Source: Planctomycetota bacterium (lineage in GTDB: Bacteria > Planctomycetota > Phycisphaerae > WQYP01). Taken from it: 13,106 nucleotides of DNA. Position 1 is the first letter of the stretch. Every line of letters starts with the position of its first letter. The notes under the pieces were generated by a model. The model was not told where the DNA came from and did not search any database. It saw nothing but the letters and a program-made list of their open reading frames with translations. Both the position numbers and the translations under genes were made by a program. Location: assembly GCA_021798635.1 (NCBI GenBank), contig JAJZGH010000129.1:1-13106 (forward strand), read 5' to 3'. Shown one piece after another: positions 1 to 13,106 of this stretch.

Positions 1-369
1 ATCACCCCCCCGAATGTTGTAAGTGCTTGGACGTGTAAAGTTCTCAGTAGGCGTTGTACCTGAGGACTTTTTTTAAGGCCGGATAAGTAAACCGGTTAAA
101 TCAACTGCGGATTTTGTGAGCGGGTATCTACCGCTTTATTTGGTTCCTTATTCTCGGACGGTGCGCCGAACCAATCGTGACGGGCGGAGGCTCGCAGCGT
201 CATCAAACCTCGTTTCCGCCGCCAACTCAACGCTGCCGCATTGAGCTATTGGCGCGATGCCGGCCTGCGAGTGAATACTTAAAAGTGGTCTTCTTCCCAA
301 CGCGGAGGTGTCGGGGCTTGTCTTATTGCTTCGGCTGGCATTTGCTGAGCGTGCCAAGAGACCGCGCAC
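1..369. other. Non-coding stretch at the window edge
   Basis: I see no supportable gene here. The short open frames on both strands lack a convincing ribosome site or protein-like composition. The region lies 3' of the minus-strand GH28 gene. Reading in that direction, the only structures are a 5-bp hairpin (AGCGG/CCGCT, plus-strand positions about 119-135) and a short CCGG/CCGG palindromic element near 78-95 next to a T-rich run. Neither is a convincing terminator. Confidence 0.5.
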
Positions 370-1938
370 TTACTTCTTCGCGCCGGGATTTTGATCTTTG
401 AGCACCGGCGAATTGCGAATGTACAGGTGCGTAACATGCGCAAAATGGGCCGCTGTAACGCCTTTTGCCAACTGAGCTTCAAAATGATTAATCTGCAAGC
501 CGTGAACATCTTTGCAGATCATGGCGGGGCGGTAATCGGTTTTCTTGAAACTGACTTTTATATTGGACAGCTCAATATGCCGCGCATGGCGGACAAATAC
601 GCCATACGAGGGCATCACGCCGATGTGCGTGGGGCCGGGATAGCCATGGTTCAGTTCCGGTGGATTGCGGCGGGCGTCTTTCCGTGTGCCGCCGCCGACG
701 AAGATCAAGCGAATGTTATCCAACCGGATATCCCGCACGTCATGGTGGGGAAGTCCGGTAATTTGGATGCCGCTCATGGATCCGACATTCGTGGCCAGGA
801 TATTGGATATCAGAATGTGCCGCAGGTGGCCCACGGTCACCGGTGGCGGAGCGCGATCGCGGTCACCCAGCGTCACGTAAATGGGACAATCTTTGACATT
901 CCGCATGGTAATATTAGATATGTTGACATCTTCCAACGTTGCTCCGTCCACCTCTTCCACCGCCAGGCCCAGGCAATCGCGGAAGGTGCAGTTGGAAATG
1001 GTGATATTTTTGAACCCGCCGTCGGATTCGGTACCCAGCTTGATGCGGCCATTTTCCCGTCGGCTCGGGAGCATTTTGCCGTCGATCAGCGTTCCTTCCT
1101 TAAAGCCTGAAAGTTGGCAATTGGTGATGGTGACATTTTCTGTGGGCCATAACCTATGCAAAGCGTCCGTGGCCTTCAGGCACAGGCCGTCGTCATGGGG
1201 AGAGTTAATCCGGCAATCGGAAACAACGGTATTGCGGCAACAATCAATATCCACCCCGTCACGATTGGTGTCGATGGTGATGTTGTTAAGCGTCAGCAAA
1301 TTACAACCAGTGACAAGAATGCCGAAGTGTCCGCCATGCACAATGGTGACATCACGGATCAGCACGTTGGTGCAAAGTTTTAGCGCGATGGCCTTATCGC
1401 CCACGCCCGGGAGTGTGGCCCCGGCGACTCGATGAGATTTGGCCCAGTGATACGCATCCGAGGTCAGTCCGCCGCCGTTGATTTCACCCATACCGGTGAT
1501 CTCAACATTTTTCAGGTTCTCCCCCCAGATCAGGCTGTTATGAAAATAGGTATGGCCGCCATCCTGATATGCTTTTCCCGCGAATGGTTCGGCATGGTCA
1601 TAGGCACCGAGTGCTATAGGGGCACCAAGAATTTCCGCACCTGGCTGCAGATGCAAATTAATATTGCTTTTCAGATGAATGCTGCCACAGAGATATATTC
1701 CCGCCGGTATTTCAACCGTGCCGCCGCCATGGGCGTTGCATGCCGCGATGGCACGGTTAATCGCCGGGCTATCCAGATGTTTCCCATTCCCTGTTGCGCC
1801 AAAGCGGCGCACGTTGTATCCGTGGGTCACCGCTTGCGCGGATGCGGCGGTGCCTTGCAAACTGACACCCGCCAGAAGCGCGGCAAGAAGAGTTATTAAG
1901 AATCGGCGAAATAAGGTTTTGGAAAATGAAAAGCGCAT
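370..1938 (-). CDS. Secreted glycoside hydrolase family 28 (polygalacturonase-like)
   Basis: Probable exported pectin-degrading enzyme of the right-handed beta-helix GH28 family (COG5434), 522 residues. The start at 1938 is chosen because GGAGA lies 10 nt upstream and a clean signal peptide follows: basic MRFSFSKTLFRR, a hydrophobic core, and an AQA cleavage site near residue 36. The longer frame from 2001 would bury this leader. The mature N-terminus (YNVRRFGATGNG, then GGGTVEIPAGIYL) is the typical pectate-lyase-superfamily entry strand. Catalytic-type motifs are NRDGVDID (residues 225-232, the NTD-like block) and HDD (aspartates 249 and 250). RIKLGTESDGGFKNI (298-312) sits where classical polygalacturonases have GHG..IGSE..GG, so the usual GHG histidine is not evident. 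The many ITISNC/NISNI repeats are helix coils. Substrate (homogalacturonan, rhamnogalacturonan or other) cannot be decided. It lies 120 bp downstream of the DUF151 gene on the same strand and probably has its own promoter. Confidence 0.88.
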   Translation of the reverse strand: MRFSFSKTLFRRFLITLLAALLAGVSLQGTAASAQAVTHGYNVRRFGATGNGKHLDSPAINRAIAACNAHGGGTVEIPAGIYLCGSIHLKSNINLHLQPGAEILGAPIALGAYDHAEPFAGKAYQDGGHTYFHNSLIWGENLKNVEITGMGEINGGGLTSDAYHWAKSHRVAGATLPGVGDKAIALKLCTNVLIRDVTIVHGGHFGILVTGCNLLTLNNITIDTNRDGVDIDCCRNTVVSDCRINSPHDDGLCLKATDALHRLWPTENVTITNCQLSGFKEGTLIDGKMLPSRRENGRIKLGTESDGGFKNITISNCTFRDCLGLAVEEVDGATLEDVNISNITMRNVKDCPIYVTLGDRDRAPPPVTVGHLRHILISNILATNVGSMSGIQITGLPHHDVRDIRLDNIRLIFVGGGTRKDARRNPPELNHGYPGPTHIGVMPSYGVFVRHARHIELSNIKVSFKKTDYRPAMICKDVHGLQINHFEAQLAKGVTAAHFAHVTHLYIRNSPVLKDQNPGAKK

Positions 1939-1972
1939 AAAATATTGTCTCCGCAAAAAGTACTGCCGCAGA

Positions 1973-2501: not shown

Positions 2502-2531
2502 TTGCCTGCCAACGCTTATCATCAGTATACT
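2502..2531 (+). promoter_or_regulatory. Candidate sigma70-type promoter of the GH95-like gene
   Basis: TTGCCT (2502-2507) and TATACT (2526-2531) are separated by 18 bp, predicting a start near 2538 and a leader of about 54 nt before the ATG at 2592. The -10 matches five of six consensus bases. It lies within AGTATACT, a perfect 8-bp palindrome, so the same bases could serve as a -10 on either strand of this divergent gap. I find no well-spaced -35 for the minus strand. Confidence 0.45.
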
Positions 2532-2591
2532 CTTCTTTGCGTGTTCAAGTTGGGTCCGTGCTTCCCGCGGAGGTTCGTCAGGAGTTTCCGG

Positions 2592-5567
2592 ATGGTTATT
2601 TACTGGGGCCGGTGCGTTCTGCATTCCGCGACACTATTTCTTTTATTTTCAGTGACATTTGCCAAGGGTCAATCGGCCGGCCCGCCCGGCGTTGCCGCCG
2701 GCGCCCTGAAAACTGTGGCCGAAATTCACGGTTCATTTAACGGTCGCATTAATTATACGCCTAATCGGACTATGCCCGGCGGCCCGCTGATGGGCAACGG
2801 TGATCTTGGCGTGGTCATGGCCGGGCGCTATGCCAATCGCCCGACATTTTACCTTGGCAAGACAGATTTCTATGGGGTGCTGCGGGGCCGCATGATGCCT
2901 GTGGCGCATCTGTCACTGAATATTCCGGCTTTGCGCGGCGGAAAAATGTCCCTGCGGGAAAATATTGGGCCTGCCACCATCACCGGAAACCTGCATTCCG
3001 GCCGTGCCGCGCTGACCATGAAATCCTGGGTGGCCGCTAAGCACAATTTGATGGTGCTGCAAATGCGCAATGTCGGCAGGCAGAATCTGACAATTCAATC
3101 CACCTTGCTTGATGCCTGGGATACACCGGGCATTCCAGCGATTCGATCGCATGGCAAAGATTTTTCCGCGCTGCATGTCGCTCCGGATTCAGTGCAGGTG
3201 TATCTAGGCAATCGGGTAAAGTTGGGGGCGGATTCGCGCGGGCAAAAGCCCGTGCAGTCTTCGTTTGCATTTGCCGGGCGTATCGCGGATGTCACGTTAT
3301 TCCGCCGGGCGGAAATCAGCGGCGGCACACTTGCGAAAAACGCTGTTTTTGCCGCCTGGCACCTTCATGCACTTCCCGCGCACGCGATACAGCAGGCATC
3401 GGTCGTGTCCTCTCCGCACGGGGCGGCTGGGAATTTTACTGGTGCACAGCGCGGGCTGATCCGCCTGGGCGTGCTGCGAATTCCGCAACGACAATTTACC
3501 GTGTCGGCTTGGGTAGATGTCACGAAACGTCATGAGAACAGCTTTATTTTCACCGCCATGGCCAATCCATATTGGCCGCGCCGCTTTCCGTATCATCGCG
3601 GGTTAAGCCTGCGACTGGCTAATGGCCATTTTGTAGCCAAATTAAATCGCACGGCCGTTAATTCCCAGGCGTACCTGCCGATCAACCAATGGGTCCATTT
3701 GGCCGCCGGTTATGATGGCCACGCGTTAACAATTTATATCAATGGCAGTATCGCCGGCACTACCACAGCTTTCCCCACGGCCGCGCAGGTAATGGGTGCT
3801 GATAAAGGATCCATTCATACCGGCGACAGCCATTTGCCATTCAACGGCTGCGGCCCCAAAGGCATCGTCATGCAGCGTGTCCTGGGCGCGATTCCCACTG
3901 AAAAACGGGGAACCCTTACATTCACAATCCCCACCGGTTCTGCGGTTGATCTGCTGGTGGCGGCGGTAGATGATCATCAAACCGCTGGTTATCAAATCGC
4001 GGCGGCTAAACTGATTCAATCCGCTGACCTGCAAAACCTGCAGCAGCTTTACGTCCGGCACACGCGCTGGTGGGATAAATTCTGGTCGCGATCCTTTGTT
4101 GAAGTGCCCGATCAGCTCCTTGAAAAGCAGTGGTATGGATCACTTTACGTTCTGGCTTGCTGCAGTGAGCCGGGCGATACGGCCCCGGGTTTATGGGGCA
4201 ATTTTATTACCTCCCGTATGATGGGCTGGCAGGGGGATTACACCCTGGATTACAACTTTGAAGCGCCGTTCTGGGCGGCATGCCCGACTAATCATGCGGC
4301 ACTGGCGGATAATTATGATTCCATTCTGCTGAACTGGATGCCGCGAGGCCGCGCCCTTGCGAAACAGTATGGTCAGCACGGATTGTACTACTTCACGCAA
4401 ATGACGCCCGTGCCCGGCTGGAGTGATGATCCATCCCGTTTTATGGGGCAAAAATGCGCTGCCGTGTTCGCAACTGTGGACTGCATTCAACGCTGGCGGT
4501 ATACGCGCAGCGCTGCGTATGCCAAAAAAATCTGGCCCTTTCTCACGGGTGTCGCGGATTTCTGGGATCATTATCTGAAACTACAGAATGGCTTGTATGT
4601 GGATATCAACGATGCCGCCGATGAGGGCTTTCACCGCAATGATGTGAATCCTGCCGCGGATTTAGCCTTTATCCATCTGTTGTACCAGAACCTGATTCCC
4701 ATGAGTCGGCAGTTGCATAAAGGCGCAGCCCAACGGCGGCGCTGGGCGGATATTCTTAATCATTTAAGCCCCCTGCCGGTAGTACCACCCTCAGATGTCG
4801 ATAAAATTTACGTTGCCCCGCCCTCCCGCACGCTTACGGATTTATTGGGTGCCCGGCGCACCGGCGCCAAGCTGGTGCTACGCTTCGCACAAAAAGGTAC
4901 AGGCTGGGCCAATCGCAACTATGCATTGCGGTTTGGCCCCCGAAAGCGGGCGGTCATCACCAGTTCCAGTGCGGGAATGGATTCACTTCAGGCCGTATTT
5001 CCCGGTTGGCAGATCGGCTTGGAAAGCTCGCCAAAAATGCTGAAGGCCGGGCGTGACACCACCGAACTTATGCGAATCTGGTACGATGCCAATGATTCCT
5101 CCAGCTTTTATCCCGCGGCCGCCGCCGTCGGCTATAACCCGGAAAAAATCCTGCGTCATCTGCATATATTCGTGCGGCACAATGCGTTTCCCAACTTTGC
5201 CTATAACATTCACAACGGCGGTATTGAAAATGAGGCCACCGTGCCCGTGACACTGTGCGCCATGCTGATTCAAAGCTATCAGCAAAACATTCATCTTTTT
5301 CCGGATTGGCCGCCGAATCGTGATGCCCGATTCGGCAACCTGCCGGCCTGCGGCAATTTTCTGATTTCCAGCGAAATGCGGGCCGGGCGTGTCGCGTATG
5401 TACAAATCATCAGTAACGCGGGCCGGCCCCTGCGGCTAAGCAATCCGTGGCCGAAACAAAGCGTCCACTATCAGATTGTCGGCGGAAAACAGGGGACGCT
5501 AAGCGGAGCCGTGCTTATGATGCCCACCCATGCCGGTGAAATAATCAGCTTGCGGGCGGGACGGTAA
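2592..5567 (+). CDS. Secreted GH95-like hydrolase with internal LamG domain
   Basis: Probable exported enzyme of the GH95 type (alpha-L-fucosidase or alpha-L-galactosidase by family), 991 residues. The start at 2592 has AGGAG 7 nt upstream and gives a signal peptide (MVIYWGR, hydrophobic core, cleavage near FAKGQS). Residues about 50-225 form the N-terminal sandwich (GNGDLGVVMAG at 68-78). Residues about 250-415 look like a LamG/concanavalin-like jellyroll (QFTVSAWVDV, then WVHLAAGYDGHALTIYINGS). From about 485 onward is an (alpha/alpha)6 barrel: YTLDYNFEAPFW (550-561) resembles the GH95 YTLNINTEMNYW block, ADEG (676-679) falls near the family's acid glutamate, and GIENE (877-881) aligns with IDGN before the MLIQS...IHLFPDWP segment. 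One of the two Asn residues of the NxN pair is Asp here and the IDGN Asp appears as Glu, so substrate and even activity are uncertain. The C-terminus is a small beta domain. Confidence 0.75.
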   Translation: MVIYWGRCVLHSATLFLLFSVTFAKGQSAGPPGVAAGALKTVAEIHGSFNGRINYTPNRTMPGGPLMGNGDLGVVMAGRYANRPTFYLGKTDFYGVLRGRMMPVAHLSLNIPALRGGKMSLRENIGPATITGNLHSGRAALTMKSWVAAKHNLMVLQMRNVGRQNLTIQSTLLDAWDTPGIPAIRSHGKDFSALHVAPDSVQVYLGNRVKLGADSRGQKPVQSSFAFAGRIADVTLFRRAEISGGTLAKNAVFAAWHLHALPAHAIQQASVVSSPHGAAGNFTGAQRGLIRLGVLRIPQRQFTVSAWVDVTKRHENSFIFTAMANPYWPRRFPYHRGLSLRLANGHFVAKLNRTAVNSQAYLPINQWVHLAAGYDGHALTIYINGSIAGTTTAFPTAAQVMGADKGSIHTGDSHLPFNGCGPKGIVMQRVLGAIPTEKRGTLTFTIPTGSAVDLLVAAVDDHQTAGYQIAAAKLIQSADLQNLQQLYVRHTRWWDKFWSRSFVEVPDQLLEKQWYGSLYVLACCSEPGDTAPGLWGNFITSRMMGWQGDYTLDYNFEAPFWAACPTNHAALADNYDSILLNWMPRGRALAKQYGQHGLYYFTQMTPVPGWSDDPSRFMGQKCAAVFATVDCIQRWRYTRSAAYAKKIWPFLTGVADFWDHYLKLQNGLYVDINDAADEGFHRNDVNPAADLAFIHLLYQNLIPMSRQLHKGAAQRRRWADILNHLSPLPVVPPSDVDKIYVAPPSRTLTDLLGARRTGAKLVLRFAQKGTGWANRNYALRFGPRKRAVITSSSAGMDSLQAVFPGWQIGLESSPKMLKAGRDTTELMRIWYDANDSSSFYPAAAAVGYNPEKILRHLHIFVRHNAFPNFAYNIHNGGIENEATVPVTLCAMLIQSYQQNIHLFPDWPPNRDARFGNLPACGNFLISSEMRAGRVAYVQIISNAGRPLRLSNPWPKQSVHYQIVGGKQGTLSGAVLMMPTHAGEIISLRAGR

Positions 5568-5684: not shown

Positions 5685-5713
5685 TTGCGAGCACTACGTA
5701 CAGCGCATAAATT
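5685..5713 (+). promoter_or_regulatory. Candidate promoter overlapping repeat copy 1
   Basis: TTGCGA (5685-5690) and TAAATT (5708-5713) are 17 bp apart, and the -10-like hexamer lies inside the 33-bp repeat. The same geometry recurs at copy 2 (TTGACG and TAAATT, also 17 bp). The hexamers match consensus only 4/6, typical of a regulated promoter. The possible small ORF at 5748 would be its first gene. Confidence 0.35.
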
Positions 5714-5729
5714 TATTTCTACAGCGCAA
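5697..5729 (+). repeat. 33-bp direct repeat, copy 1 (candidate operator)
   Basis: Identical over 33 bp to 8194-8226. It contains the 9-mer TACAGCGCA at 5699-5707 and again at 5720-5728, a 21-bp period or two helical turns, around an AT-rich centre. AraC-family regulators bind direct half-sites with this type of spacing, and a XylR-type AraC regulator follows the other copy. The role as an operator is inference. Confidence 0.75.
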
Positions 5730-5747
5730 GACGCCGGAGACAATCGG

Positions 5748-5897
5748 GTGACAATCGCACGGTTGCGCCGTCTGTGCTGTGCGAAAATCAAAGCTCTTGG
5801 CGGCCGGGATATATGCTTAAACATGTTGATGATAGCGGCTTTGGTGGGCCGATGGCTCGTGCGTGGATGGCCCCTGCGGCCTAAAGGCAAGCGATGA
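5748..5897 (+). CDS. Possible small basic membrane-type protein (49 aa)
   Basis: Unrecognised. A GTG start at 5748 has GGAG 8 nt upstream and lies 18 bp after repeat copy 1, so a promoter, ribosome site and start are arranged as at the regulator gene. The product would begin MTIARLRRLCCAKIKALGG, contain a hydrophobic stretch (roughly residues 22-38, LNMLMIAALVG.WLV) and end in a basic tail (RPKGKR). It could be a one-pass peptide. It could also be a chance frame in GC-rich sequence: base composition by codon position is not persuasive and no family is recognised. The open frame actually extends upstream through the repeat to 5652, but that longer start has no ribosome site. Confidence 0.25.
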   Translation: MTIARLRRLCCAKIKALGGRDICLNMLMIAALVGRWLVRGWPLRPKGKR

Positions 5898-5939
5898 TAT
5901 GGCTATCTAATCCGAATATTCCTGGGCGCTGCCCCGGAG

Positions 5940-5968
5940 TTGACAAATAGTTTGGTGGCGCTTGCAAT
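5940..5968 (+). promoter_or_regulatory. Candidate promoter of the CxxC membrane protein gene
   Basis: A perfect TTGACA (5940-5945) is followed after 17 bp by TGCAAT (5963-5968, 4/6). This predicts a start near 5975 and a leader of about 54 nt before the ATG at 6029. Confidence 0.5.
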
Positions 5969-6028
5969 GAGAAAAGTTCATGAGGCTTTGTTGTAGTACC
6001 TAAGCTAACTTTAATAAGGGAAAATTCT

Positions 6029-6574
6029 ATGGCGATGTCGGGCATTCGGGAAAAAATGAATGAAAATCAGAAGCCGTTTATTATTGGGGGCATTGTTATG
6101 GTATGTCTGGCCGTTGGACTGTTAATCTGGGAATTAAAGCCCGTCAGCGCGCCGTCCGCCCCCAGCAGTTATTATTTTTATGATATGTCCAATGGCAGTA
6201 TTACCACCGAGCCGGCCACCGCCATTTCGCCGCTGAAGGGTGCCGACGGTAAAGATACGCTGGTACAGGCATTTTTCTTCACCTGCAGCAGTTGTGGAGA
6301 TAAAAAGATCGGCTACCTGCTGAAATATACTCGCCGTGCCCAGGCGGCGAAGGCTTATCTTGCCCGGCCGCCCAGCGGCACAATGACCCCTCAGCAATCC
6401 ATGCAATTTGGTTCCTCCCTTTCCAAATACCAGGTCGCGGTAGCCATGGGCACACTGGTGCGTTTGCCAGCCAAAGGTTCGCACTGGTATCCGATCGCCG
6501 GTCCGATGGGTTCGCAAATCACCAGTCCGCCCCGTTGTTCCGCAAGCGCGCTGGCCAAACCCTGCTTCCCATGA
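6029..6574 (+). CDS. Single-pass membrane protein with CxxC and C-terminal cysteines
   Basis: Uncharacterised 181-residue protein. AAGGG stands 8-9 nt before the ATG. A short basic N-terminus is followed by one transmembrane helix (about residues 17-36, FIIGGIVMVCLAVGLLIWEL), then a region beginning SSYYFYDMSNGSI that would lie outside the membrane. It contains a CSSC pair (Cys86, Cys89) followed by GDKKIGYLLKYT. It ends with Cys160 and Cys169 in the pattern C-x8-C-F-P. Two cysteine pairs suggest a metal site (zinc) or disulfides. From memory, this architecture (YxYD...CxxC...YLxKYT...PC.P) recurs in planctomycetes without known function. It has its own promoter, stands between repeat copy 1 and the pseudopilin-like gene, and converges with the latter. 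Confidence 0.75.
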   Translation: MAMSGIREKMNENQKPFIIGGIVMVCLAVGLLIWELKPVSAPSAPSSYYFYDMSNGSITTEPATAISPLKGADGKDTLVQAFFFTCSSCGDKKIGYLLKYTRRAQAAKAYLARPPSGTMTPQQSMQFGSSLSKYQVAVAMGTLVRLPAKGSHWYPIAGPMGSQITSPPRCSASALAKPCFP

Positions 6575-6760
6575 ACGATTCAACGCTGCCGTATTGCCCT
6601 AATGACACGCCGTTGATTCACGTGGACTGTCACCGAGAATAACCGTTAGCGCGGCAGCGGCACGGTTACATGTGCATTACCATCACATAAAAAACCGCAC
6701 GTTACGCCCGTCCCGCGCTGCGTTGTTCTCTCACATGCCAGGCTGTCTCTGATTCGGTCC

Positions 6761-6803
6761 AAAAACAAAACCGGCCGCCTTCTCTATTTGATCGGGCGGC
6801 CGG
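6761..6803 (-). terminator. Rho-independent terminator, minus strand
   Basis: GGCGGCCGG/CCGGCCGCC arms (plus positions 6795-6803 and 6771-6779) form a 9-bp GC stem with a 15-nt loop. On the minus strand the stem is followed at once by TTTTGTTTTT (complement of 6770-6761). This is a classic intrinsic terminator for leftward transcription, and the nearest such gene is the pseudopilin-like one, whose stop is about 320 nt upstream. The plus strand lacks an equivalent T-run. Confidence 0.75.
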
Positions 6804-6896
6804 CTTTAGGAAGGTGTATTAAAGGGGGAAAGTTCAATTTTAAATGGGCGAAATTGCCCGCAGGCAGCCCCTGATTTTATGACCGGCTAAAGGCCT

Positions 6897-6929
6897 GATC
6901 CCCACGGGCAAAGCCAGCCCGTGGGGATC
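6897..6929. repeat. Perfect 13-bp hairpin downstream of the pseudopilin-like gene
   Basis: GATCCCCACGGGC (6897-6909) and its exact complement (6917-6929) flank a 7-nt loop. It lies about 190 nt past the minus-strand stop codon and inside the transcript that would end at the 6761-6803 terminator. There is no adjacent T-run. It could be an mRNA 3'-end stabiliser, an attenuating element or a protein-binding site. Confidence 0.6.
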
Positions 6930-7120
6930 TCAAGCGACTGTGTTATCGACCGCCTGGTGCCGTGGCCAGTGAGCAACCTGTTGGCGGATTACAACTCGGC
7001 GGTTTCGGACGATTGCTGCCGCCGGGTGTGTTTTCAGTGTGGGAGAATGCCTCCGCATGGTCATCGCCTACCACACCATTTACGGAATGGGTATATTCCC
7101 CTGACCGCGCGGCAAGCGCC

Positions 7121-8047
7121 CTATTGCGGCTGTTCTTCCGCTGCCAAGGTGGACCGGACCGAGGCAAATTGACTGGCCGAGACCTGCCAGTTGGGCTGCC
7201 AGTGCAGGTTCCACACATCCGCGAGTAGCACGCTCTCGGCGTGGCCGTCCGCGAAGACGAAATTAGTGGAGAATCCATGCCGATTAGTTATGTAACGGGT
7301 CATGTAGTCCCACCAGACGAAACCGCCGTAGCCGTTGGAAAGGCTGCTTCCTGGGCTGTCCCAGTTATCCGGGCCGCCGTCGGGCATTACGCCGTCGCCG
7401 ATCAGCGGAGTGTTACTGTTAGGTTGGCCGCCGATTCCAAAAAAATCGCTGGATCCCCCGCCTGTCCAACCGGCCGGGGCAAAGTTTGGCGCGGTCTGCC
7501 CCGCCATAATCGGGGACGCCGAATAGTTGTACATCCAGTCGTTGAATGTATAGCTGCAAAAGAATGTGCCGGGGCCAAATTCCCCGGGTGGATTCAGAAA
7601 GGCATCGGGTACGCGCCCCGTGTTCATCGCCCCTCCGGTGAGATTTTCGCACATCACACTTGTCCACGGGGTCACCGCGTCAGGGGACGGCTGGTACCAA
7701 TTGCCGTCGCTTCTAATTGTAGTCACCGGGCAAAGGAATACCTTGGGCGTCGCTTCAAATGGTGCCAGATACTCGAACCAATTCCCGGCATTCCAAGTCC
7801 CGACGTTTCCATTGGCCGTGTTATCCCAGTTACAGATCATTGTTGAGTATTCCGAGATGTACTCATTATACCCGACCCCCAATTGGCGCAAATTGGACTG
7901 ACAAAGAGTGACTTTTGCCAGCTTTTGCGCTCTTGCCAATGCCGGCAGCAGTAACGCGATCAGCAGCGCGATGATGGAAATCACCACCAGCAGCTCAATG
8001 AGCGTGAAGCCTTTTGGCTTACGACCAAGATAATGTGTGACTTTCAT
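7121..8047 (-). CDS. Pseudopilin-like protein with type IV leader and H-X9-DG motif
   Basis: 308-residue protein with an N-terminal prepilin methylation motif: MKVTHYLGRKPKG then FTLIELLVV, predicted cleavage after Gly13 and Glu at position 5 of the mature chain, followed by the hydrophobic ISIIALLIALLLPALARA helix. Next comes CQSNLRQLG, usual in this family, and a long Gly/Trp/Asn-rich exported domain. Near the C-terminus is H257 followed after nine residues by DG (267-268), the prepilin-processing-associated H-X9-DG signature known from planctomycetes and Lentisphaerae. The start at 8047 has GGAGG 9 nt upstream; the frame extends 20 codons further but without the leader at its start. Such proteins are thought to be assembled or processed by type II secretion/type IV pilus machinery, but individual roles are unknown. 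It is divergent from the XylR-type regulator gene. Confidence 0.9.
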   Translation of the reverse strand: MKVTHYLGRKPKGFTLIELLVVISIIALLIALLLPALARAQKLAKVTLCQSNLRQLGVGYNEYISEYSTMICNWDNTANGNVGTWNAGNWFEYLAPFEATPKVFLCPVTTIRSDGNWYQPSPDAVTPWTSVMCENLTGGAMNTGRVPDAFLNPPGEFGPGTFFCSYTFNDWMYNYSASPIMAGQTAPNFAPAGWTGGGSSDFFGIGGQPNSNTPLIGDGVMPDGGPDNWDSPGSSLSNGYGGFVWWDYMTRYITNRHGFSTNFVFADGHAESVLLADVWNLHWQPNWQVSASQFASVRSTLAAEEQPQ

Positions 8048-8155
8048 AAATAAAGTCCTCCGAAAAAAAAGTACCTGAACCTTCCTGTTTTCAGTCCCGG
8101 GCGACACACCCGCGACTGCTTAGTTGTTTAATCGAGCATCTCGCATTAACAAGAC

Positions 8156-8167
8156 ATTATTAATAAT
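8156..8167. repeat. 12-bp AT palindrome in the divergent gap
   Basis: ATTATTAATAAT is perfectly palindromic and extends into further AAT repeats to the right. It lies between the start codons of the pseudopilin-like and regulator genes and may be part of a promoter region or a binding site. By itself it is low-complexity. Confidence 0.4.
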
Positions 8168-8181
8168 AATGATCTAAAAGC

Positions 8182-8210
8182 TTGACGCCACTTCGTACAG
8201 CGCATAAATT
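8182..8210 (+). promoter_or_regulatory. Candidate promoter overlapping repeat copy 2
   Basis: TTGACG (8182-8187) and TAAATT (8205-8210) are 17 bp apart. The first TACAGCGCA half-site falls in the spacer and the second just downstream of the -10, so a bound regulator would cover the promoter. This suits autorepression more than classic upstream activation. TTGACGCC recurs at 8243-8250. Confidence 0.4.
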
Positions 8211-8226
8211 TATTTCTACAGCGCAA
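8194..8226 (+). repeat. 33-bp direct repeat, copy 2 (candidate operator)
   Basis: Exact copy of 5697-5729. TACAGCGCA occurs at 8196-8204 and 8217-8225 with a 21-bp period. It ends 42 bp before the regulator's start codon, the expected place for an autoregulatory site. The function is inferred from position and geometry. Confidence 0.75.
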
Positions 8227-8268
8227 AATGAATATTAGTATTTTGACGCCCAAATGGAGTGTTGTATT

Positions 8269-9483
8269 ATGAGACAAACCACTAAAATCAAGCAAATTAG
8301 CCGGAAAAGGCGCAAACGGGTGGCATTATTCCTGGAGGATATGGGACCCTATGGTGAGCGCGCCTTGCAGGCCATCGCTCATTTTGCCAGGGGCCGGGGC
8401 ACGTGGCGCGTGGACATGGCCAACTTTGGGGAAGTCACGGTAGACGAGATTGCCGCGGGTAAAGTGGATGGGGTCATCTTCGGGCAGTGGGAGGCCTTGC
8501 CGGCACTCGTGGATGGCATTAACCATAGCGGCGTGCCGGCGGTGGATATTTCCGGCGGTGATGAAGTCCAATCACCCCCCGCGCGTGTGATGCCCGATGA
8601 CCGGGGCGTCGGAATAATGACTGCCGAACATTTTCTCGCACGCGGTTTTGAGCATTTTGCGTATTACGGTCTGCCCGAGGAATTTAATCACCGCTGGGAA
8701 AAAGCCCGACGAGATGGTTTCCGCGATACCTTGGCCAGCCGCGGCTTTTCAACGGATTGCTTCAGTGGTTCCGCCCGCGGCTGGAATGAACTCCATGATA
8801 GAGCCCATCTGGGGGCTTTGAGCCGCTGGTTGATAAAGCTGCCTAAGCCCTGCGCGGTGCTGGCTTGTATTGATGCCTTCGCCTATGAAATTTTGCGATT
8901 GTCACGGGAGTCGGGCATCGCGGTTCCTGAAGATCTCGCGGTGTGTGGTGTCGATAACCGCCTGTGGATTTGCATGTTGGCCAACCCCACCATTACCAGT
9001 ATCCCCCTCGACGGTGCGCAGGCCGGTGCCCGCAGCGCCCAAGTCCTTGACAAACTCATGGCCGGCCGCGCGGTTCCGCGCGAGCCGATACTCATTGCCC
9101 CGCTACCCATTGAACAGCGCGAATCCACCGATGTCTACGCTTTCCATGACGCCGACGTGGTGGAAGCTCTGCACTATATTCGGGATCATTGCAACCGACC
9201 GATCACCGTTGCGGATATCCTTCGGACAATTCCTGTTTCTCGAAGGTCACTGGAAATGCGGTTTAAGAGTCTCACGGGCCAAACACTTCAGGCGGAAATC
9301 TGGAGAGCGCATCTGGACCGCGCCAAGCGGCTGCTGCTGGAAACGGACCACTCCATCTATGACGTCGCCGAAAATTCCGGATTCCGGACAGCGGCAACGT
9401 TTAATGTCATGTTCCGCCGGACCTTTGACAAGACGCCTACCGAGTTTCGTCGGCAGGTTAAATTGCCCATGCCACAGGCGTAA
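8269..9483 (+). CDS. XylR-type transcriptional regulator (sugar-binding domain + AraC HTH)
   Basis: Cytoplasmic DNA-binding regulator of 404 residues. The start at 8269 has GGAG 9 nt upstream; an in-frame ATG at 8254 lies before that site. Residues about 15-285 form a LacI/periplasmic-binding-type ligand domain: RVALFLEDMGPYGERAL opens it, VDGVIFGQW and GVPAVDIS follow, and VPEDLAVCGVDN (219-230) with NPTITSIPLDG is the typical late segment. Residues about 295-398 are an AraC-type double helix-turn-helix (ITVADILRTIPVSRRSLEMRF, then IYDVAENSGFRTAATFNVMFRRTFDKTPTEFRR). XylR of enteric bacteria has this layout and activates xylose genes; the ligand here is unknown but is probably a sugar, given the hydrolases nearby. 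The 33-bp repeat ahead of it is a likely autoregulatory site. Confidence 0.92.
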   Translation: MRQTTKIKQISRKRRKRVALFLEDMGPYGERALQAIAHFARGRGTWRVDMANFGEVTVDEIAAGKVDGVIFGQWEALPALVDGINHSGVPAVDISGGDEVQSPPARVMPDDRGVGIMTAEHFLARGFEHFAYYGLPEEFNHRWEKARRDGFRDTLASRGFSTDCFSGSARGWNELHDRAHLGALSRWLIKLPKPCAVLACIDAFAYEILRLSRESGIAVPEDLAVCGVDNRLWICMLANPTITSIPLDGAQAGARSAQVLDKLMAGRAVPREPILIAPLPIEQRESTDVYAFHDADVVEALHYIRDHCNRPITVADILRTIPVSRRSLEMRFKSLTGQTLQAEIWRAHLDRAKRLLLETDHSIYDVAENSGFRTAATFNVMFRRTFDKTPTEFRRQVKLPMPQA

Positions 9484-10631: not shown

Positions 10632-11168
10632 ATGCGGTGGCTGACGTTTTTTCTGTTGCTCTATTTTGCCACGGCCCTTCAGGCCGCGCACCTTGGGCAA
10701 TGGAGTGAATTCGGCTATTTCCATATTGAATATATTTTCATGCTGGCTGTGTTCTATGCTTTGTTCGCGGAGAAAGATGCCGCGCTCCTGGCTTGCTTCT
10801 GGTGCGGATTGATGTATGACCTTACCGGACAGTCTATTGTTGGACTGGAAGCGATTCTGGTGGGGATGATTGCGTTGGGCATTATCAGCATCCGCATGCA
10901 CATTTTTCGATCCAGCGTGCTGGGGCAGATGGTAATAACCTTTCTGGCGGTGTTGCTGTTCCTGGCGGGGCGCGTGCTGTTCGGTCATCTGGCCCTGTAT
11001 TTTGCCGGGCGGCCGGTGCCGATTATCAACAGTCTGGCTTACACCGGCGTGATATTATCCAGCAGCCTGTATACCGCTGCGGTTGCGCCGTGGATTTTTC
11101 GCGCTTTATTTTTGCTGGGAGATATGCTGGGCTTTGATATGCAGCATCGCCGGAGCATGGCCCGCTAA
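10632..11168 (+). CDS. mreD: Rod shape-determining protein MreD
   Basis: 178-residue integral membrane protein, rich in hydrophobic helices (about five: residues 1-18, 33-52, 55-82, 92-118 and 128-165). MreD is a component of the elongasome that links MreB/MreC to the lateral-wall synthases. The support is its hydrophobic profile, the family-like block CFWCGLMYDLTGQSIVGLEAIL (typically 'G...Dl.....lG..all'), its length, and above all the PBP2 gene directly downstream. No strong ribosome site precedes the ATG, which may suggest translational coupling to upstream genes or a different start. MreD proteins vary widely in sequence, so the context carries much of the call. Confidence 0.8.
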   Translation: MRWLTFFLLLYFATALQAAHLGQWSEFGYFHIEYIFMLAVFYALFAEKDAALLACFWCGLMYDLTGQSIVGLEAILVGMIALGIISIRMHIFRSSVLGQMVITFLAVLLFLAGRVLFGHLALYFAGRPVPIINSLAYTGVILSSSLYTAAVAPWIFRALFLLGDMLGFDMQHRRSMAR

Positions 11169-11255
11169 TCCCGCCGCCGCATTCCACGGCGTGCGGATGT
11201 TAATTAGCCGGCGGCTGATCGATGCCATTGGAGGATTGTCGAACGCCGGGATGCG

Positions 11256-11285
11256 TTGAAATCATCCGCGGCATTACGCTAAGAT
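11256..11285 (+). promoter_or_regulatory. Candidate promoter of mrdA
   Basis: TTGAAA (11256-11261, 5/6) and TAAGAT (11280-11285, 4/6) are 18 bp apart in the 182-bp gap between mreD and mrdA. The size of the gap makes an extra promoter for mrdA plausible, but the match is modest. Confidence 0.3.
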
Positions 11286-11350
11286 CATAAGATCCATAGC
11301 GCAGACGGTAACTGGTTATGCGGCGGCAACCATAGAGGTATCCAATCCGG

Positions 11351-13106
11351 ATGTTAAGGCGGCGATTAATCATGCTGGTTGTTCTGGCAGCCCTGGCGAT
11401 GGCCGTCATTGGCGCGCGTTTAGCGGCGCTGGAAATTTTTCAGCACCAGCACTGGCGGGATGAAGCCCGAAGTTTTACCTATCGCCACTACATGATTCCC
11501 ACCCGGCGGGGTGAAATTATGGATCGTGACGGCCGGCTGCTGGCGGTGGAAACGCCCTGCTACAATCTGGCGATTGAATATCAGGCGATGAACCATGACG
11601 CGCTGTGGATCACAGCGGTGGCCATCCGCCACCTGGAACATCTTAAATTATCCCGTGCCCAAATGCTGGTCCGCCTGCCGGTGGAAAAGCGCAAAATTAA
11701 CAGCGAACTGGACCGCATGCCCGAATCCATCGCGGATCATTGCGGCGTGCCGCTGGGACAGGTGCTGCACAGCTTCGATAACATCCGCAGTCGAATGCAA
11801 CTGCTGCGGGAAGATGTCTGGACCGTGCGATATTCCCATGTGGTGCATTCGGGAACGTCCCCGGATGATCTGGATGAGCAAATGGGCCTGGCCAACAGCA
11901 TCGATCTGGCTGAAGCCCATGAGGCGCATACCGTGATTCCCGATATCGGCTTTGCCGCCGCCGCGTATTTCAAAAAGCACGCTCGCCGCTATCCGGGTTT
12001 GGTGGTGCAGGCCGGCACGCACCGGATCTATCCTTATAATGATGTGGGGGCACATCTGATTGGCTATATGCGACAAGTTACTGCACGGGTGGTGGAACAG
12101 CACCCGTTTGTGCTTCCCCGTCTGATTCCGGGAAGTCTGCGCGATACGCGTGGGCACCTGCGAGGGTATTTGCCGGGCGATACGATGGGGGCCACGGGAG
12201 TCGAACAGGCCGCTGAAAAATTATTACGCGGCGCGCGGGGCGTGCGCCTGGTGAATCTGGAAGGTCATCAAGTAAAGGAAGATTATCGCAAGCCGGTGCC
12301 GGGGCAAAATATCCGTCTGACGCTGGATATTAATTTGCAGCGGGCGCTAAGGGAAAAATTAGAGGACCCCACGACGCACCTGTTATATTTTAACGGGCAA
12401 ACGCACAACGCCGCCGTGGTAGTCTTGTCCGTAGCCCATAATCGTGTGCTGCTGATGCTTTCCGAACCGGGTTATAACATCAACACCGTCCACAAAAATT
12501 ATTCACTGCTGTTAAAAGATCCGAATTTGCCCCTGATGGATCGCGCCATGTCCAGCGCGTTTCCCCCCGGCAGCATCGTCAAGCCGCTGGAATCCTCCTT
12601 TGCCATGACCCTGGGAGTTATTACGCCCCAAACTGTCATCAACTGCGGCCCGGAACTGTTTCCTAATCATCCCAATGTGTTTCGTGACGACTCCTATCCG
12701 TACGGACGCGGCCCGACCGATGTAGTCACCGGTTTGGAGGAATCCTGTGACGTATTTTTTTACAATGTCGGCATGCGACTGGGACTTACCCGCCTGGTGG
12801 CCGGTTATCGCAGTTACGGCCTGGGTTCGCCCACCGGTATTGGTCTGGCGGAAGAGACCAGCGGTTATCTTCCGCCGACGGATCATGGCCTCAGCAAAAT
12901 CAAACGTCTGGATGATGCGATTATGATGGGTATCGGGCAGGGGCCCATGGCGGTGACGCCATTGCAGATGGCCAACGGCTACACGGCCATGCTGCGCGGC
13001 GGACGTTGGATGCAGCCGCAGTTGATGCAGCAGCTCCACCGACCACCGGCGCGGCCGATTCATATCAACACATCTTGTCTTAAATATATATATAAAGGTA
13101 TGTATT
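11351..13106 (+). CDS. mrdA: Penicillin-binding protein 2 (peptidoglycan transpeptidase), 3' end cut by window
   Basis: Class B PBP, 585 residues visible, with the frame still open at the window end. It cross-links peptidoglycan during elongation, anchored by one N-terminal helix. MLRRRL (cytoplasmic) is followed by the helix at about residues 7-25, then PTRRGEIMDRDGRLLA (50-65), the RG.I.DR.G motif that opens the PBP dimerisation domain. The transpeptidase domain shows PGSIVK with catalytic Ser408 (SxxK), SCD (Ser465, the SxN-type motif as in many PBP2s) followed by VFFYNVG, and IGQGPMAVTPLQMANGYTAM. The KTG motif should lie beyond the window. ATG 11351 is preceded by an in-frame TAG a few codons upstream, so no longer start exists there; AGAGG lies 12 nt before it. 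The last visible codons are AT-rich but keep the family's KGM pattern. It follows mreD by 182 bp. Confidence 0.92.
   Translation, partial: MLRRRLIMLVVLAALAMAVIGARLAALEIFQHQHWRDEARSFTYRHYMIPTRRGEIMDRDGRLLAVETPCYNLAIEYQAMNHDALWITAVAIRHLEHLKLSRAQMLVRLPVEKRKINSELDRMPESIADHCGVPLGQVLHSFDNIRSRMQLLREDVWTVRYSHVVHSGTSPDDLDEQMGLANSIDLAEAHEAHTVIPDIGFAAAAYFKKHARRYPGLVVQAGTHRIYPYNDVGAHLIGYMRQVTARVVEQHPFVLPRLIPGSLRDTRGHLRGYLPGDTMGATGVEQAAEKLLRGARGVRLVNLEGHQVKEDYRKPVPGQNIRLTLDINLQRALREKLEDPTTHLLYFNGQTHNAAVVVLSVAHNRVLLMLSEPGYNINTVHKNYSLLLKDPNLPLMDRAMSSAFPPGSIVKPLESSFAMTLGVITPQTVINCGPELFPNHPNVFRDDSYPYGRGPTDVVTGLEESCDVFFYNVGMRLGLTRLVAGYRSYGLGSPTGIGLAEETSGYLPPTDHGLSKIKRLDDAIMMGIGQGPMAVTPLQMANGYTAMLRGGRWMQPQLMQQLHRPPARPIHINTSCLKYIYKGMY

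Follow-up and report, generated by a model that had tools for sequence, protein, structure and literature searches.

The Escherichia coli regulator XylR acts on xylose catabolism genes, and AraC of the same organism binds araI1-araI2 as tandem half-sites 21 bp apart, with the proximal half overlapping the -35 element. For AraC, two proximal operators are described as serving activation, and a distal one as being engaged by looping (PMC4760080). The XylR-type protein XylRA of Vibrio is described as activating polysaccharide genes, a GH26 among them, in response to xylose; its operator has two direct, AT-rich repeats, and most of its targets lie in one locus (PMC12125979). Among the titles and abstract openings surveyed, no regulon study of Phycisphaerae, and none of xyloglucan control in Planctomycetes, was recognised; no absence from print is claimed. 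Here a stretch of 13,106 nucleotides from a Planctomycetota bacterium of the class Phycisphaerae (hereafter the window) was analysed, in which a XylR-type regulator gene is preceded by one copy of a repeated element. Judging from sequence, it is highly probable that these repeats are operators of the adjacent regulator, a XylR-type activator that would serve a xyloglucan-linked regulon and repress its own gene.

The repeat pair and the adjacent regulator

Two intergenic 33-bp stretches in the window, 2.5 kb apart on the forward strand, are identical letter for letter (Table 1), and extending the match outwards gives 38 nt at 97%. Copy 1 lies between the stop of the GH95-type gene (5567) and the ATG at 6029, and copy 2 between the ATG of the divergent pseudopilin-like gene (complement 8047-8045) and that of the regulator (8269), which is 42 bp past the end of the repeat. 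The pattern TACAGCGCA-N12-TACAGCGCA has exactly two matches in the window (5699-5728 and 8196-8225, both forward) and was never matched in 200 dinucleotide shuffles, even with three mismatches permitted. The half-sites are spaced 21 bp start to start, both in the window and in its relatives. The preliminary description had reported a perfect intergenic pair of shared orientation, with in-phase half-sites 21 bp apart and an agreement far beyond chance; the exact match, the pattern scan and the shuffles bear this out.

Table 1. Coordinates of the predicted operators, promoters and neighbouring genes in the window
Feature	Position	Strand	Remarks
Predicted operator copy 2, full extent	8187..8228	+	Family logo; 33-bp repeat 8194-8226
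Copy 2 boxes	AGCGCA cores 8199-8204, 8220-8225; upstream GCCACT 8187-8192	+	
Predicted operator copy 1, full extent	5690..5731	+	33-bp repeat 5697-5729; without opposite-strand -10
Copy 1 boxes	AGCGCA cores 5702-5707, 5723-5728	+	Upstream box is AGCACT
Putative -10 of divergent pseudopilin promoter, TATTAT	8163..8168	-	5/6 match
Putative regulator promoter, TTGACG-N17-TAAATT	8182..8210	+	Overlaps operator copy 2
XylR-type regulator, 404 aa	8269..9483	+	LacI/GalR-like sensor and AraC-type HTH_18
Pseudopilin-like protein	7121..8047	-	N-methylation motif; FADGHAE near C-terminus
181-aa protein, no family assigned	6029..6574	+	First gene downstream of copy 1
GH95-type glycoside hydrolase with Laminin_G_3 domain	2502..5567	+	Ends 129 bp before copy 1

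Related sites were collected from 13 MAGs of one family and the window; they are partly orthologous, and many of their flanks end at contig ends. In a logo of 45 sites, which include orthologous loci and are hence not all independent (L070, a duplicate of L011, was omitted), conservation extends to columns that the search pattern did not cover: GCCACT at -12 to -7, GTA at -4 to -2 and AA at +27/+28. The element is well supported as a putative tandem AraC-type operator of ~42 bp, GCCACT-N6-AGCGCA-nAAnTTTwT-N6-AGCGCAAA. The 33 bp first proposed stand as the extent of the exact repeat and not as that of the full operator, which is longer because the upstream GCCACT box is part of it. The AT-rich centre noted earlier holds as part of the operator and, in addition, contains TAAATT, a putative -10 for transcription of the regulator itself.

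The regulator carries a C-terminal AraC-type double helix-turn-helix (HTH_18, 5.7e-19, residues 327-401 of the 409-aa frame), in agreement with the AraC-type domain first ascribed to the gene downstream of copy 2, and a LacI/GalR-like periplasmic-binding-protein sensor (Peripla_BP_3, 9.9e-28). The LacI HTH family was not among the three domain families reported for it (E 0.001). E. coli XylR (PDB 4fe7/4fe4) is matched over residues 14-394 at E 1.6e-48, and the start at 8269 fits the 404-aa length of the eight closest homologues among the matches listed. XylR-type regulators have operators in which two direct repeats are separated by about two helical turns, and the 21-bp spacing of the putative binding site corresponds to this arrangement.

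Conservation across loci, genomes and paralogues

The operator is present directly ahead of a related regulator in 13/15 loci (L001-L015; L016 and L017, with only a partial protein match, were excluded), counting any site or PWM hit that falls between the regulator match and its neighbouring gene. These span 45-90% protein identity, with 5/5 loci at 79-90% and 8/10 at 45-60%. The two exceptions are L008, where no operator lies directly ahead of the regulator, and L009, where none was found in the 11 kb examined and only 134 bases precede the regulator match. The core pattern gave 38 matches in 10 of the 28 family genomes (1-7 each; none in the other 18), and a reversed-pattern control gave one; in 369 other genomes of the class its 10 matches are at background level (control, 22). 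Two of the collected sites, L078 and L079, fit neither operator model and are without the -10, and may be chance matches. Sequence comparison directly shows the sites, their conservation and their restriction to one lineage; it also shows the constant distance to the -10 and the gene linkages treated below.

These results support the initial reading of the repeats as a putative AraC-family operator: the motif is kept ahead of orthologous regulators and confined to one lineage, and with few sites per family genome and background elsewhere it is not a dispersed repeat, the case raised against that reading at the outset. It is exceedingly improbable that the repeat is mobile or dispersed, forms a structural RNA element or serves as a recombination site. 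The perfect pair would suit mobility, as would L003, which has three operator copies plus a second pseudopilin, so that the unit can evidently duplicate. However, the flanks beyond ~42 bp are not conserved between the copies, the few sites per genome are usually near a gene start and mostly at a fixed -10 spacing, and no Rfam match was found at the gathering threshold. No tRNA was found either.

A different XylR paralogue or another factor might bind the sites, with the neighbouring regulator gene a passenger. The family genomes have up to 21 XylR-type matches at E 1e-30 among the matches listed, and 21-bp tandem repeats precede several XylR paralogues. The same spacing also speaks for the operator reading of the repeats: ahead of other XylR-type paralogues (41 non-redundant upstream regions, grouped from 60 loci among the matches listed), repeats recur most often at a lag of 21 bp, whether k is 6, 7 or 8. 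[AG]CGCA, exact 7-mers and exact 8-mers all peak there, though in few groups (3, 5 and 4 of 41). Stretches ~1 kb further upstream, taken as controls for 57/60 loci, had 4, 2 and 0 groups with that lag (k = 6, 7 and 8), close to the counts at their other lags. A general tandem GCG signal ahead of the paralogues was considered and discarded: plain GCG is not distinctive, recurring at lag 21 in 12/41 groups, while other lags average 8.9 and reach 16.

Two genomes also have a site without a clade regulator, here a protein of at least 45% identity, with B paralogues counted and some fragments included (G011, G020): G014 has no regulator match at E 1e-30, and G018 none above 33% identity. We nevertheless regard another binder as quite unlikely. 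A-type flanks go with A-clade regulators and B-type flanks with B-clade regulators (log-odds 44-50 for the own class and -16 to -4.7 for the other, the autoregulatory sites scored having also trained the two models), and, except for G014, G018 and G006, genomes with sites have a clade member. G014 and G018 hold one site each, and G006 two, its regulator being seen as a fragment. Four genomes (G007, G009, G010 and G011, the last with a fragment) have a clade regulator and no strict core-pattern site; weaker sites occur in the examined stretches of the first three only.

Promoter geometry and a proposed mechanism

Once related left flanks are removed, 18 of the 32 remaining sites have an opposite-strand -10 at exactly -36; when the flanks were letter-shuffled 1000 times, the mean at this position was 1.25 and no position exceeded 9. 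In this analysis the missing-left-flank filter removed none of 49 sites, and PWM scores include training sites. The putative pseudopilin -10 of the window falls at family position -36 to -31 from the operator core. The fixed distance places GCCACT at the -35 and thus gives an activator geometry toward the divergent gene; the main regulated promoter appears to lie on the strand opposite to the regulator, toward the pseudopilin. With singleton ORFs under 130 aa ignored, a divergent gene starts within 320 bp in 31/45 sites and a co-oriented gene on the other side in 18/45 (12 both, 8 neither). The 14 sites without a divergent gene comprise 6 of copy-1 type, 5 before Kdo hydroxylase genes, 2 at contig edges and L005, where the pseudopilin is absent. 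On the regulator side, no sharp peak of a -10 at a fixed distance downstream of the sites was seen (top 6/38 at +64).

That the regulator is chiefly a repressor, blocking its own rightward promoter and the leftward one until ligand release, is unlikely. The putative regulator promoter does overlap both half-sites of copy 2, its TTGAC is kept in 6/6 aligned loci, the sensor domain is LacI/GalR-like, and TTGCGA-N17-TAAATT occurs at copy 1 in the window, L001 and L003. However, TTGCGA was not found at copy 1 of L002 and L004, and a -10 at a fixed distance with GCCACT replacing the -35 suits an activator, while such spacing would be less expected of a repressor. XylRA of Vibrio, a relative that has been characterised, is an activator (PMC12125979).

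The hallmarks of class II activation, an operator over the -35 and a fixed -10 distance, are found at copy 2 and not at copy 1, where the opposite-strand -10 is missing in 6/6 loci. The two copies, as compared here, are not equivalent, copy 1 being without such a promoter. Copy 1 could instead be a remote looping partner of copy 2, araO2-like and ~2.5 kb away, rather than a promoter-proximal operator. Its conservation without a -10 would fit this, as would a distance between the copies of 2.3-2.8 kb in the window, L001, L002 and L004 (about 3.9 kb in L003), and looping of AraC type is described for araO2/araI1 (PMC4760080). We consider it improbable, however: the distance is long, variable and explained by the lengths of the intervening genes, and L005 keeps copy 2 and the regulator yet is without copy 1, the pseudopilin and the GH95 gene. 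Relatives of the 181-aa protein downstream of copy 1 adjoin clade regulators. A conserved leader between copy 1 and this gene was considered and rejected: the close loci are only modestly similar there, and the alignment of L004 is poor except at the site and the start of the gene.

For binding, dimer arrangement, ligand, activation and autorepression, we infer the following scheme, in which the regulator is primarily an activator. A regulator dimer would place its two AraC-type domains on the tandem half-sites, two helical turns apart, each domain reading a pair of boxes, GCCACT/AGCGCA in one half-site and TTTwT/AGCGCA in the other, with about one turn between the boxes of a pair. Because the GCCACT box of copy 2 is at the -35 of the leftward promoter, the sugar-bound regulator would recruit RNA polymerase there and activate the pseudopilin-like gene, the presumed target of copy 2. 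The bound regulator would at the same time cover the -35 and -10 of its own rightward promoter, resulting in autorepression. Copy 1 may also be an operator of this regulator, though with another output.

Predicted regulon and relation to known systems

The regulon of the window itself is predicted from its relatives, in which sites precede clusters of GH31 alpha-xylosidase and GH74 xyloglucanase genes, PEP-CTERM proteins and pseudopilins. Since the operators head such genes, xylose or a small oligosaccharide of xyloglucan is the probable signal. The GH74 matches a xyloglucan hydrolase at 3e-179, and the GH31 matches YicI at 1.4e-248. A search for GH74 gave 14 matches in 11/28 genomes, and the link to the operator holds without synteny. 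Where the genome has a clade regulator, all nine GH74 at 41% identity or more are preceded by an operator, placed ahead of the gene itself or of its cluster, which is led by GH31 or PEP-CTERM; at G009 and G020 C60 the site is weak. G013, with a GH74 of at least 41% identity and no clade regulator, has no operator, and the examined stretches around four GH74 at 36-37% identity (L193, L194, L195, L198) contain no site. Likewise, the operator is present at 6/6 GH31 genes of at least 65% identity and missing from a seventh, in G028 (50% identity), a genome without a clade regulator. The score of the G009 GH31 site is 13.8, and the highest value in three shuffles is 9.3. Three clade regulators adjoin GH74 (L007, L008 and G020 C60).

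The GH26 sites in relatives are of B type, and the window's are of A type. In the G008 assembly only a B paralogue of the regulator was found, though its GH31 site leans to type A. We suggest tentatively, as a possibility that is more doubtful than probable, that the A regulator and the B paralogue each run their own pseudopilin and PEP-CTERM genes together with matching glycoside hydrolases, orphan pseudopilins being substrate-induced surface structures; xyloglucan would then be assigned to the A regulator and mannan-type glycans (GH26) to the B paralogue. If each XylR-type regulator runs such a set, the many orphan pseudopilins of the phylum would correspond to one polysaccharide each. For uncultured planctomycetes, the analysis provides an operator code that can be tested and predicts a regulon; it also connects pseudopilins and PEP-CTERM proteins with a sugar regulator. 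Comparison of the two paralogues, in which operator letters vary with the glycan genes, could allow substrates to be assigned to orphan regulators from sequence.

Among described systems, E. coli XylR (PDB 4fe4/4fe7) shares with the window regulator a LacI/GalR-like sensor joined to an AraC DNA-binding domain and, as described for XylR, direct-repeat operators. It differs in operator sequence, and the putative targets of the window-type operator are pseudopilin, PEP-CTERM and xyloglucan enzyme genes. AraC at araI1-araI2 resembles the window operator in its 21-bp tandem half-sites and -35 overlap and differs in the half-site letters; its sensor domain is also different from that of the window regulator. 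Compared with Vibrio XylRA, the window-type operator has the core AGCGCA, and its putative regulon is dispersed.

The repeat pair and the adjacent regulator

Comparison of the window sequence confirmed that the two 33-bp copies are identical and intergenic with half-sites 21 bp apart, and that copy 2 lies 42 bp from the regulator ATG, as the preliminary description had claimed. The half-site pattern, with up to three mismatches allowed, gave no match in 200 dinucleotide shuffles of the window. The regulator does carry the AraC-family domain ascribed to it (HTH_18 in Pfam, together with Peripla_BP_3), and its best solved relatives are the E. coli XylR structures 4fe7/4fe4 (1.6e-48, residues 14-394); it is a XylR-type protein. 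Its start codon at 8269 is supported by the eight closest homologues among the matches listed in a protein search, all of the same length (404 aa). This search scored the 7,996 candidates sharing most words and returned 166 matches, with at least 23 at ≥42% identity among the 120 matches listed, while one scan of the species-genome collection returned 17 regulator loci, all Planctomycetota or Phycisphaerales MAGs by title. In the 28-genome family, regulators ≥45% identical to that of the window (clade regulators) were found in G001-G005 and G007-G010, with fragments of such regulators in G011 and G020; G006 contains a fragment of 84% identity. Family genomes contain up to 21 XylR-type regulator matches each at E 1e-30 or better (G002 and others), and tandem GCGCA-like repeats, 21 bp apart, occur upstream of several of these paralogues.

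The site, read as an operator in the preliminary description, also precedes orthologous regulators in 13 of the 15 loci where the regulator is complete or almost so. It lies directly ahead of the regulator in L001-L005 (79-90% identity), and weaker sites do so in L006 and L007 (60 and 54% identity; scores of 27.5 and 35.7 with a PWM trained without those two sites, where the largest shuffle value was 9.3, three shuffles each). In L010-L015 (45-47% identity) the operator is present with other letters, typically GTTAGCGCA replacing TACAGCGCA. In L008 no operator was found directly ahead of the regulator, but two occur elsewhere in the cluster, one preceding a PEP-CTERM gene and one a pseudopilin gene. 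None was found anywhere in the fetched stretch of L009, in which 134 bases precede the regulator match.

The genome-wide search proposed in the preliminary description was run in relatives, and the core pattern (≤1 mismatch) occurred 38 times in 10 of the 28 family genomes, compared with a single occurrence of the reversed control pattern in the same genomes, which also make up the order sample. The class sample comprises 397 genomes, these 28 among them; the other 369 gave 10 matches, one each, and 22 for the reversed control (our count). Because matches outside the family are fewer than those of the control, the site belongs to one lineage. G014 and G018 contain a single site apiece and no regulator of ≥45% identity. 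G007, G009, G010 and G011 have the regulator and no site by the strict core pattern, with weaker sites in the fetched stretches of the first three.

Features of the window discussed in the text
Feature	Position	Strand	Remarks
GH28/beta-helix pectinase-like protein	373-1941	-	flank
Copy 1	5697-5729		33-bp repeat
TTGACA-N17-TGCAAT	5940-5968	+	ahead of orphan gene, by eye
Orphan protein, 181 aa	6029-6574	+	hydrophobic N-terminal stretch, CSSC motif
Pseudopilin	7121-8047		divergent gene of copy 2
Putative -10 TATTAT of pseudopilin promoter	8168-8163	-	family position -36..-31
Putative regulator promoter TTGACG-N17-TAAATT	8182-8210		simple promoter scan
Copy 2	8194-8226		33-bp repeat
Regulator	8269-9483	+	XylR-type
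MreD and penicillin-binding transpeptidase	10632-13105	+	flank

Operator anatomy and promoter geometry

A logo was built from 35 different sites, of which many are orthologous to one another, with coordinate 0 at the first A of AGCGCA. It consists of GCCACT (-12..-7), GTAC (-4..-1), AGCGCA (0..5), AA (7-8), a T-rich centre (10-14), a second AGCGCA (21..26) and AAA (27..29), with little conserved beyond. Because AGCGCA and some of the central columns served to find the sites, their conservation is partly built in; that of GCCACT, GTA and the trailing A positions is not, as these lay outside the search pattern. The boxes share one face of the helix and are spaced by roughly a helical turn. AraC-family monomers have two helix-turn-helix motifs each, and the layout is what might be expected for two such monomers.

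A hexamer resembling a -10 occupies -36..-31 of the strand opposite the site. After removal of related left flanks (kept if <60% identity), 18 of the 32 remaining sites matched in at least 4 of 6 letters at exactly -36, and 6 and 8 at -37 and -38, versus a mean of 1.25 at -36 and a maximum of 9 at any position in 1,000 letter shuffles of the flanks. With a 17-bp spacer, this -10 would place the -35 hexamer on the GCCACT box, the arrangement of an activator whose site covers the -35 of a divergently transcribed gene. Consistent with this layout, a divergent gene starts within 320 bp on the -10 side of 31 of 45 sites; co-oriented genes lie within 320 bp on the other side of 18, and 12 have both.

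The promoter scan gave 6 sites in the region vs a shuffle mean of 2.3. All six aligned loci preserve the TTGAC of the putative regulator promoter, and since this promoter overlaps both half-sites of copy 2, we infer that the regulator would repress its own gene, on weaker evidence than that for the divergent promoter.

Copy 1 is kept in the window, L001-L004 and L074, and the opposite-strand -10 is absent there in all six; in the window, the GH95 gene on that side reads in the other direction. Rightward, the next gene is the orphan, 260-451 bp away in the five loci where the ORF caller found it. TTGCGA-N17-TAAATT is present at copy 1 of the window, L001 and L003 and absent from that of L002 and L004. 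In L005, copy 1 is missing along with the pseudopilin and GH95 genes; copy 2, the regulator and the orphan gene are retained. Copy 1 may control a rightward promoter, serve as a looping partner, or be a relic.

The orphan protein has no Pfam or NCBIfam match; the protein search gave 24 homologues, and 24 of the 28 family genomes contain matches, the gene lying between two operators or right after a paralogous regulator. The TTGACA-N17-TGCAAT ahead of it, similar in L001-L003 and not among the promoter scan sites, suggests a promoter of its own ~210 bp downstream of copy 1. L003 has three operators (1327, 3606, 5217) and two tandem pseudopilin genes, and here operator and pseudopilin seem to have been duplicated as a unit.

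Operator types and the predicted regulon

The regulators include two paralogue clades, A (that of the window) and B. A CAAG-type box replaces CCACT in sites ahead of B regulators and GH26 genes; scores of the GH26 sites are 18-22 under the B model and -11 to 6 under the A model. Sites of GH31, GH74 (L066) and PEP-CTERM (C11 cluster) genes score higher with A than with B, and Kdo hydroxylase sites are mixed. As each class contains few sites and a GH26 sequence alone does not point to a single glycan, two operator types matching two paralogues are a lead. In the upstream regions of 41 non-redundant groups of other XylR-type paralogues, exact repeats of k = 6, 7 and 8 were most often spaced by 21 bp (9, 5 and 4 groups, with maxima of 8, 3 and 2 at other lags), so this regulator family probably makes wider use of the 21-bp syntax.

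Kdo hydroxylase (KdoO) and GT87 genes lie behind operators in five genomes (L011 12285, L012 3829, L013 12419, L015 12269, L068 9693; family assignment tested on L011 and L012 and extended to the others by clustering). Their opposite-strand -10 fits best at -38, and such sites would connect lipopolysaccharide modification with sugar regulation.

The regulator shares one cluster with GH31 and GH74 genes in L007 and L008, and lies beside a PEP-CTERM gene and GH74 in G020; the L008 GH31, ~26% identical to the other GH31 proteins, is accordingly a different orthologue. The L069 GH74 protein matched xyloglucan hydrolase 2cn2 (3e-179) and its GH31 protein matched YicI (1.4e-248). YicI is an alpha-xylosidase. 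In G001-G004 and G008, the GH31 gene is on another contig than the clade regulators, headed by an operator leaning to type A and followed by GH74 where the contig reaches, although in the G008 assembly a B regulator alone was found. Where the genome has a clade regulator, each of the nine GH74 genes of ≥41% identity is preceded by an operator, either at the gene or at the head of its cluster; the operators of G009 (score 13.8, shuffle maximum 9.3) and G020 C60 (26.4) are weak. A tenth gene of this identity, in G013 without a clade regulator, has none. Likewise, 6 of 6 GH31 genes of ≥65% identity are preceded by an operator, and a seventh GH31, in G028, is not. Because this linkage persists where synteny is lost, it provides the strongest case for predicting that the regulator clade of the window has a regulon related to xyloglucan. 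The GH95-type gene adjoining copy 1 in the window would suit fucosylated xyloglucan and may come under the control of copy 1. Single sites also precede a 1055-aa Reg_prop protein (L081) and proteins we could not name; the L078/L079 matches, which precede a PATR/PEP-CTERM protein, agree with neither the A nor the B operator model, lack a -10 and may be due to chance.

On this sequence evidence, we regard the two copies as a genuine pair of operators for a XylR-type regulator. The kind of system is an ordinary one, but its evolutionary footprint is unusually clear, its promoter geometry is fixed, and a regulon linked to xyloglucan is predicted for it in an uncultured lineage. The XylR of PMC8579813 is, in the excerpt of that source, a ROK-family protein and has no bearing on membership. 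Excerpts from the literature describe araI1/araI2 operators and looping (PMC4760080), and XylRA of Vibrio as a XylR-type, xylose-responsive activator with two direct repeats (PMC12125979).
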